A stretch of 64,000 nt of DNA from Candidatus Tectimicrobiota bacterium. Lineage in GTDB: Bacteria; JACPUC01. The stretch is taken from NCBI GenBank assembly GCA_016192455.1, contig JACPUC010000011.1:1-64000 (forward strand). Direction: 5' to 3'. The position numbers and the translations under genes are program-made. Of the stretch, positions 8,066-38,854 are shown piece after piece (within the stretch, counting starts at the first letter, position 1; the number at the start of each line of letters is the position of its first letter). The notes below the pieces were generated by a model, which saw nothing but the letters and a program-made list of their open reading frames with translations, had not been told where the DNA came from and searched no databases.

Positions 8066-8578
8066 ATGGACGAGAAGGTGAGCAGCCGTTTCTCGCGCCA
8101 GGGCCACGAGCTCACCGTGGTCGTCGAGGCGAAGGCGCTGGAGAAACAGCGCAAGGAGGCCGAGGTCACCCTCGTGGCGCCGCCGGGCCGGACCTTCACC
8201 CTGCACTGCGACGAGGGGGCCTACCTCAACGGCGACGACACCGCCCCCCCGCCCCTGGCCTTCCTCTCCGCCTCCGTCGGCTTCTGACTCCTCACCCACG
8301 TGTCGCTGTATGCGACCATGCTGCGCCTCAACCTCAAGGCCGCGCGCGCCAGGGTGAGCGCCAGGTTCCATGGCGAGGGCTCGGTGCGGGCGGAGACCGT
8401 GCTGACGCACTGCACCGGCGTGGAGACGACCTTGGAGCTGGAGTCGGAGGATGACCCCGCCCAGCTTGCCAAGCTAGCGCGCGTCGCCGAGGCGGGGTGC
8501 TACGTCATCCAGTCCCTCCGCCACCCCACGGAGGTGGCTTACAAGGTAAGCCTGAACGGCACGCCTCTGTCGCTGTGA
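8066..8578 (+). CDS. OsmC-like protein, candidate selenoprotein (in-frame TGA at 8285-8287 read as Sec)
   Basis: ORFs 8066..8287 and 8300..8578 share a frame: ...AYLNGDDTAPPPLAFLSASVGF-[TGA]-LLTHVSLYATMLRLNLKAARARV...; TGA aligns with the conserved redox Cys of OsmC proteins (cf. GALVSC in the paralog at 38111-38596). RBS aaggag upstream. Confidence 0.85.
8302..8316 (+). promoter_or_regulatory. Candidate bacterial SECIS hairpin for OsmC-like UGA
   Basis: GTCGC-TGTAT-GCGAC perfect 5-bp stem; apical loop starts 20 nt after the TGA (8287) with G at loop position 2. Confidence 0.65.
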
Positions 8579-8673: not shown

Positions 8674-9228
8674 CTACACCCGCCCTTTCTTCAGGAGGCA
8701 GAAGCCGTTGGACTCGACGAGCAGCGCGTGGTTGAACTTGCTGCGGAAGTTCTCGAAGGCGATCGTGGCGGTGAGTTCGACGAGCGCGGCGGGTGGAAAC
8801 TGCGCTTCGAGCTGCGCGAAGAGGGCGCCGTCCGCGTCCTGGTCGCTGCGGGTGATGCGCTCGGCGTAAGTGAGCGCCAGCTTCTCGCGGCGGTTGAAGA
8901 GGGGGCTGGCGGCATAGTCATGCACGGCGGCCACTTGCTCTTCACTCAACCCTTCTTGCATCCCACGGGACGCATTGATGTCCGCTCAGAAGGGGCAGCC
9001 GTTCAAGCCCGCCACGTAGGTGTAGATGAGGCTGCGCAGCTTCAGGTCGATGTTGCCCGCCTGCTCGATCCCCATGGTGAGCGCGGCGGCGCCCTTCAGG
9101 ATCGTTGGGCAGTAGCCCATGAGGCGGGTGGGATTGAGCACCGTGCCGAAGCGCGCCTCCTGCTGCCGCATCACCTCCCGCACCTCCGGCGCCGCCGTCT
9201 CGATGGTCAGCTCGCGTAGTCGTGGCAT
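8674..9228 (-). CDS. AhpD-like/carboxymuconolactone decarboxylase family protein, candidate selenoprotein (in-frame TGA at 8988-8986 read as Sec)
   Basis: Same-frame ORF pieces join as ...LRSLIYTYVAGLNGCPF-[TGA]-ADINASRGMQEGLSEEQVAAVHDYAASPLFNRREKLALTYAERIT...; TGA occupies the second Cys of the AhpD CxxC site (CPFU). aggagg-type RBS before ATG at 9228. Confidence 0.88.
8957..8974 (-). promoter_or_regulatory. Candidate bacterial SECIS hairpin for AhpD-like UGA
   Basis: Minus-strand TGCGTCC-CGTG-GGATGCA (7 bp including one G:U); loop begins about 18 nt after UGA with G at loop position 2. Confidence 0.7.
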
Positions 9229-9583
9229 CGTCTCCTCCTCTCTTCCCCTGGTTCTGCTCCGCCCGCTGCGTGGTTCCGCCGCGCGGCGCGCGGCGGCTGC
9301 TGCGAATATGGCGCCACGCATTCCTTGCCGAGAGCCCGGCTCTCCGCCGCTCCTATCATCTACTACAAAGTGTGCGTTCAGGCTACCGCGGCGATGCGCG
9401 ACGCGGGTCGACGCCAAGCTTCTCCGCGGCGGGCCCCGCGGCGCCCAGCGTTGACGCAGGCCGACAGTCTGCTACGATAGCGGCGCGGACGCCGGCGTCA
9501 AGGTGGGCTCGCAACGGCCTTCCTAGGCGCCTCGGCGTCGCTTCGCAGTCCTCGCCGTCCTCGAGACCTCAGCGTACGCTTCC

Positions 9584-10450
9584 ATGACCCTGTACGTCCA
9601 AGCGATTCTGAACGGCATCCTGGTGGGCGGGGTGTATGGCCTCGTGGCGATCGGCCTGTCGCTGATCTTCGGGGTGATGAAGATCATCAACTTCGCGCAC
9701 GGGGAGATGCTGGTCCTGGCGATGTACCTGAGCTTCTTCCTCTTCACGCTGCTCGGGATCGATCCGTACATGTCGCTGTTCGTCTGCGCGGTCGCCGCTT
9801 TCATCCTCGGCTATGGCGTGCAGCGCTTCCTGGTGAACCGCATCCTGCATGTGCCGGAGGAGATGCAGGTGCTCCTCATGCTCGGCGTGGCGCTGGTGCT
9901 GCAGAACGCCACGCTGGTGGCCTGGGGACCGAACTTCCGCGCCGCGCAGACCCGCTACAGCCTGAGCACGGTGTGGCTGGGGCCGCTCGTGATGGATGTG
10001 CCGCGGCTCGTCGCTTTCGTCCTGGCGTTGGCCCTGGCGCTCCTCCTCTATCTCTTCCTGCGGCGCACCGAGCTGGGGACGACCATCCGCGCCGCCGCCG
10101 ACAACCGCGACGGCGCCGTGCTCATCGGCCTCGACGTGAGGCGCATCTACGCCTTCAGCTTCGGCCTCGGCGCCGCCTGCGTCGGCGCCGCCGGCTCCAT
10201 CATCCTGCCGTTCCTGCCGATGTCGCCCTACTCGGCGCTCAGCTTCACGTTGACGAGCTTCATCGTCGTCATCCTGGGCGGCATGGGGAGCTTCCTGGGG
10301 GTGCTCGTCGGGGGCCTCTTCGTCGGCGTGGCGGAGAACCTGGGCGCGGTGGTCCTGACCAGTTCGAGCAAGTACATCTTCAGCTACGCCTTGCTCATTC
10401 TCGTGATGGTGCTCCGTCCACAAGGGATTTTCCGAGGGCGCAGCGGATGA
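9584..10450 (+). CDS. livH: Branched-chain amino acid ABC transporter permease LivH
   Basis: GIYGLVAIGLSLIFGVMKIINFAHGEMLVL...GGMGSFLGVLVGGLFVG. Confidence 0.93.
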   Translation: MTLYVQAILNGILVGGVYGLVAIGLSLIFGVMKIINFAHGEMLVLAMYLSFFLFTLLGIDPYMSLFVCAVAAFILGYGVQRFLVNRILHVPEEMQVLLMLGVALVLQNATLVAWGPNFRAAQTRYSLSTVWLGPLVMDVPRLVAFVLALALALLLYLFLRRTELGTTIRAAADNRDGAVLIGLDVRRIYAFSFGLGAACVGAAGSIILPFLPMSPYSALSFTLTSFIVVILGGMGSFLGVLVGGLFVGVAENLGAVVLTSSSKYIFSYALLILVMVLRPQGIFRGRSG

Positions 10451-38596: not shown

Positions 38597-38854
38597 CCAA
38601 CTCCAGCTTCAGGGCGCGGAGAGGCGCCGCTGTTCCAGACCCGACGAGGCGGCGCGCGGCGGCAACGGCAGGAGCAACGAGAGGTGCGCGCCCGAGCCGC
38701 GCCGTGAGCGAGCGCGCTCGTCATCCCTGGCGGCCGCGGGCAGGGGCCACCTGACCAGGACCTGCCGCGGCGCGGCTATCCTACACCGTTTCGTGCCTCG
38801 GGTCATGCCGGTTCGCGCCGTCGCGGCAGGCTGCTCGGCCGCCGGGTGGGCTGG

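Follow-up and report, generated by a model that had tools for sequence, protein, structure and literature searches.

The 64-kb window (the whole stretch of DNA analysed) holds on its minus strand a gene, 9228..8674, that by comparative sequence evidence almost certainly encodes a selenoprotein of the AhpD fold, its in-frame UGA being decoded as selenocysteine (Sec) at residue 81. The selenoprotein claim of an earlier note on this DNA is upheld, as a computational assignment, with high confidence. The reading mends a gene model that standard annotation would break in two or mark as a pseudogene, and it supplies a clean Sec/Cys sister-clade pair in which an RNA signal appears and vanishes with the UGA. 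Knowledge of Sec decoding itself is unchanged by the gene.

Reading frame and Sec machinery of the host genome

Two minus-strand ORFs, 8986..9417 and 8674..8961, lie in a common frame in the ORF list, separated by the TGA and eight sense codons. The earlier note had joined them in frame through the TGA, and both the list and the read-through translation bear this out. With the TGA decoded as a residue and translation begun at ATG 9228, which has a ribosome-binding-like GAGGAGA on its 5' side, the product is 184 aa long and reads ...GLNGCPF-U-ADINASRGMQEGLSEEQ... (motif around Sec81, NGCPF-U-ADIN). This TGA is the only one in frame between 9228 and 8674, and the Pfam CMD domain match crosses it (residues 42-123, 44.8 bits). 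Throughout the 64-kb window, coding-like composition is found on both in-frame sides of only three TGA codons: that of the AhpD-like gene, that of the adjacent OsmC-family gene, and one at 38611.

Table 1. Coordinates of the AhpD-like gene, its predicted recoding elements and associated genes (window positions, except SelD)
Feature	Position	Strand	Details
Candidate AhpD-like (CMD/YciW-YnjA-like) selenoprotein gene	8674..9228	minus	184 codons; ATG 9228; stop TAG 8676-8674
In-frame TGA, predicted Sec	8986..8988	minus	Residue 81, second position of CPFU motif
Cys78 TGC codon	8995..8997	minus	First residue of putative CxxU redox motif
Putative bSECIS hairpin	8957..8974	minus	UGCGUCC-CGUG-GGAUGCA; nt 15-32 from U of UGA
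Hairpin loop	8967-8964	minus	G23 at 8966, U24 at 8965
OsmC-family ORF	8066-8578	plus	PF02566, 49.6 bits; in-frame TGA 8285-8287, SVGF-U-LLTH (UxxT)
SelD, locus L010	G000:C3:190907-191827	plus	Single in-frame TGA

The assembly that holds the gene is a draft of 4.46 Mb in 31 contigs and is 88% complete. Absence of Sec machinery had been named beforehand as a ground for rejection, and all four components were found: SelA (596 bits) and SelB (366 bits) adjoin each other on contig 23, SelD (389 bits) lies on contig 3, and a tRNA-Sec with anticodon TCA (UCA; 75.5 bits) lies on contig 8. All four exceed curated cut-offs by wide margins; control genomes also give profile matches, those above cut-off being only SelA, SelB and SelD of a few controls. 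SelD is probably itself a selenoprotein, since its gene also contains one in-frame TGA. SelB scores above cut-off in the genomes of 11 of the 12 relatives from the genome_contigs scan described below, and SelA is present in all three relatives' genomes checked.

Sec and Cys relatives and the conserved hairpin

Searches of the gene's own family and phylum returned nothing beyond its own genome, and relatives were therefore taken from other groups; the viral collection held no relative. The genome_contigs scan gave 12 relatives with 40-68% identity, mostly from proteobacterial MAGs, and every one has TGA at the identical codon after CPF. Because the scan patterns also covered regions away from the active site, Cys members of the Sec clade were detectable; none was found among these 12. 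When 387 genomes belonging to the class of genome G002 were searched with a profile, six TGA-containing matches ranked highest (281-330 bits), among them L035, which is the same gene as L022 recovered again. Below a score gap come ten matches scoring 146-172 bits, and lower still L050 (110 bits); all of these are free of the stop and read C-x-F-C, with Cys aligned to the Sec column. The codon aligned to the TGA is TGC or TGT in the nearest Cys relatives, and E. coli YnjA is an additional relative with Cys at the Sec position.

In the phylogenetic tree, the 16 Sec genes group on a single branch (96/94), whose sister branch (99/96) comprises the 11 Cys genes; the window gene pairs with L021 (support, 100/99). 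The alignment to Cys homologues that the earlier note had proposed as a check thus shows Cys at the UGA column in both the sister clade and YnjA, in agreement with its placing of U at the second active-site Cys of CxxC. Two features expected of a selenoprotein, Cys homologues at the UGA position and conserved coding on either side of it, are present; after the TGA, coding is conserved through FENFRSKFN and GFC with no further stop.

Several matches differ from this pattern. L030 (1676-2170, plus strand) keeps CPF-TGA, while about 16 residues directly after the TGA are gone and the hairpin with them, an in-frame deletion that may reflect an assembly fault or decay. In L031 the loop is shifted and the 5' end is damaged. 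Because of the deletion in the one and the damaged 5' part of the other, both were omitted from the hairpin statistics; L035 is a duplicate of L022. L063 (1501-2034, minus strand, genome G114) is a different AhpD-like gene with NGCKY-TGA, and belongs to another CxxU subfamily, one closer to TIGR01926. G221, G311 and G039 gave three further, weaker matches with TGA.

A stem TGCGTCC-CGTG-GGATGCA with a loop about 18 nt past the UGA and G at loop position 2 had been described from the sequence, and it is present as claimed: nt 15-21 pair with nt 26-32 around the loop C22-G23-U24-G25, the hairpin starting 11 nt and the loop 18 nt after the UGA. The folding energy of the single gene is unremarkable against dinucleotide shuffles (z, -0.66 to +0.44), and synonymous recodings of the window gene (row L033) reach an equally good stem in 1% of cases. 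Since single-sequence folding was undistinguished and Rfam held no family matching the hairpin, the evidence had to be comparative.

Among the Sec genes, 16 have the region after the UGA intact, and in every one of them a hairpin begins 11 nt past that codon and carries G23-U24 in the loop. When the same peptides were recoded synonymously with the codon use of each gene itself (2000 trials), G23-U24 was present on average in 2.4 of the 16 genes and at most in 9. The summed stem score is 100, versus 41 +/- 6 in the recodings (maximum, 62). At residue U+7, whose codon bears G23-U24, Arg is encoded by CGU in 13/13 cases, versus 12/159 for the other Arg codons of the same genes; this forced codon is a simple signature that could help detect more members. 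Stem covariation, computed on the 12 genes with a 5-nt loop, is 0.368 versus 0.103 in shuffled alignments (0/500) and exceeds that of all slid registers. A comparable stem is missing in 10 of the 11 Cys relatives; the remaining one, L041, has such a stem by simple score but lacks G23-U24. From the recoding and covariation numbers we infer that the hairpin is kept for use with the UGA and not for the peptide.

The E. coli fdhF element is a 17-nt stem-loop (nt 15-31) located 11 nt after the UGA, in which U17, G23 and U24 are important (PMC8659212). In that numbering, the hairpin described here shares the position of the upper stem-loop and both G23 and U24, whereas the bulged U17 is absent, nt 17 being C in 16/16 Sec genes. 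SelB carrying Sec-tRNA(UCA) would bind the hairpin 11 nt past the UGA and decode the UGA as Sec81.

Other accounts of the in-frame TGA have to be set against these data. A Cys codon, TGC or TGT, could have been misread or mutated to TGA, giving a sequencing error or a pseudogene; the codons of the Cys relatives are one base away from TGA, and the genome is a draft in 31 contigs. That account is scarcely credible, as each close relative found has the TGA independently, the downstream coding is conserved, and the joint conservation of TGA and hairpin in 16 other assemblies refutes error or decay in practice. The earlier note had allowed that resequencing might reveal a Cys codon, an objection that fails on the same TGA throughout the close relatives. 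Genome-wide reassignment of TGA, for example to Trp, would make the codon an ordinary one, and a lone TGA within an open frame would look identical. We give this almost no weight: the family residue at the TGA is Cys rather than Trp, the genome encodes tRNA-Sec, SelA, SelB and SelD, and ORFs of the window end normally at TGA (for instance 9584..10450 and 8578), with only three TGAs bridged by coding-like sequence.

The gene might instead be split, an N-terminal polypeptide running to the TGA and a C-terminal one beginning at the in-frame ATG at 8961 or at another start. This is extremely improbable, since most relatives do not conserve the Met at +9, the break would cut the active-site helix and part it from the hairpin, and G23-U24 together with stem covariation requires a hairpin acting at the UGA.

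Fold, predicted redox centre and known relatives

A model of the full read-through product has the AhpD fold (mean pLDDT, 93.7), with structural matches to 2prr, 6k40, 6ohi (Bmp8) and PA0269. The Pfam CMD match, the all-helical fold and the CxxC/U helix place the protein in the CMD/AhpD-like superfamily. In M. tuberculosis AhpD, the relay consists of Glu118, Cys130, His132, Cys133 and His137 (PMC3141380). The position of Glu118 is occupied by Pro, Ser or Ala and that of His137 by Asn in 16/16 Sec genes; the Cys sister clade has Ser or Val at the former and Asn at the latter. The description "AhpD-like" in the earlier note therefore holds for the CMD/AhpD fold and CxxU but not for AhpD proper: because the relay Glu and His are missing, the protein is assigned to a YciW/YnjA-like branch.

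The Cys78-Pro-Phe-Sec81 centre would lie at a helix start, and Cys-Sec redox chemistry is expected. Cys78 and Sec81 would form a dithiol-like redox pair acting on a thiol, disulfide or peroxide substrate, in which Sec81 would be the reactive selenolate and Cys78 would resolve the intermediate. Cys40 and Cys177, which vary little or not at all across the Sec alignment, may also matter.

Whether this centre works as an AhpD-type alkylhydroperoxidase or AhpC reductase is a separate question. The Pfam CMD match, the AhpD-like fold and the CxxU motif are consistent with such activity, and the adjacent OsmC-family gene with its in-frame TGA fits a peroxide-defence theme. However, the replacement of both relay residues in all 16 Sec genes, and the invariance of His55 with Cys48 and Cys51 among the AhpD-like structures compared (PMC3141380), make this role rather unlikely; as the relay Glu and His are missing, AhpD-type peroxidase activity is not to be assumed. 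In the surrounding DNA that was examined, no ahpC turned up. A bolder reading, somewhat less likely than not, is a separate unnamed subfamily in which Sec is fixed (every clade member found has it), an Asn-based centre replaces the relay, and catalysis differs from AhpD-type peroxide reduction.

The kind of selenoprotein is already known, as the earlier note had stated. AhpD-like CxxU selenoproteins have been reported from Sargasso Sea and GOS data (PMC1088965, PMC2398784), NCBIfam holds NF053654, and reviews list such proteins as COG2128/YciW or TIGR01926 and as CMD-like (PMC9312934, PMC13188914). Two published families, AhpD-like 1 (COG2128/YciW, CxxU; Zhang and Gladyshev) and AhpD-like 2/CMD-like (PF02627, CxxU), were compared by description, and both resemble the window protein in having the CMD/AhpD fold, Sec in place of the second Cys of CxxC and a downstream bSECIS (PMC1088965, PMC2398784, PMC9312934, PMC13188914). 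The branch itself has no name of its own in the libraries searched. Of the NCBIfam models, NF053654 (GroundWater_YciW, "YciW-related (seleno)protein") matches each of the 13 proteins in the Sec alignment best, and does so along almost their full length. The window protein scores 145.4 bits against its curated cut-off of 310, and the Cys sister clade scores equally (143-147 bits); the branch therefore falls outside the NF053654 equivalog.

Among individual proteins, E. coli YnjA shares 32% identity, the -C-x-F-C-V-D-I/L- centre and a C-terminal G(F/L)C with the window protein, but has Cys at the Sec position and is encoded together with ynjBCDE in one operon. M. tuberculosis AhpD and P. aeruginosa PA0269 share the CxxC helix motif and the fold, and differ in the relay Glu and His, which are not conserved here; PA0269 aligns with a TM of 0.72-0.73 by query, and M. 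tuberculosis AhpD is a weak structural match (E, 0.3-1.7). The debrominase Bmp8 (6ohi/6ohj) matches in sequence (E, 1.7e-8) and structure (TM, ~0.80); it is a Cys enzyme of bromopyrrole chemistry, for which the window protein offers no support. E. coli YciW has been connected with cysteine tolerance (PMC10821248), but is a weak lead only, because it has two domains and differently spaced cysteines (PMC11429811).

Neighbouring genes and other TGA codons

The AhpD-like gene stands alone between convergent and divergent neighbours. A serC-serA arrangement lies upstream of L022, and what looks from sequence only like a serA also precedes L026 and L032; the arrangement is not common to the window gene, and the neighbourhood is uninformative on function.

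The OsmC-family ORF converges on the AhpD-like gene at a distance of 95 nt. Base composition is coding-like to either side of its in-frame TGA, a hairpin lies downstream of that codon, and UxxT is the motif of published OsmC-like selenoproteins. No copy of this ORF was found in the flanks of the related loci fetched. The TGA at 38611 (minus strand, ...RRLSAP-U-SWSWMGG...) is likewise flanked by coding-like sequence, in a context that is not Cys-like, and is probably a normal stop codon with a start (GGNPMPGIEP) after it.
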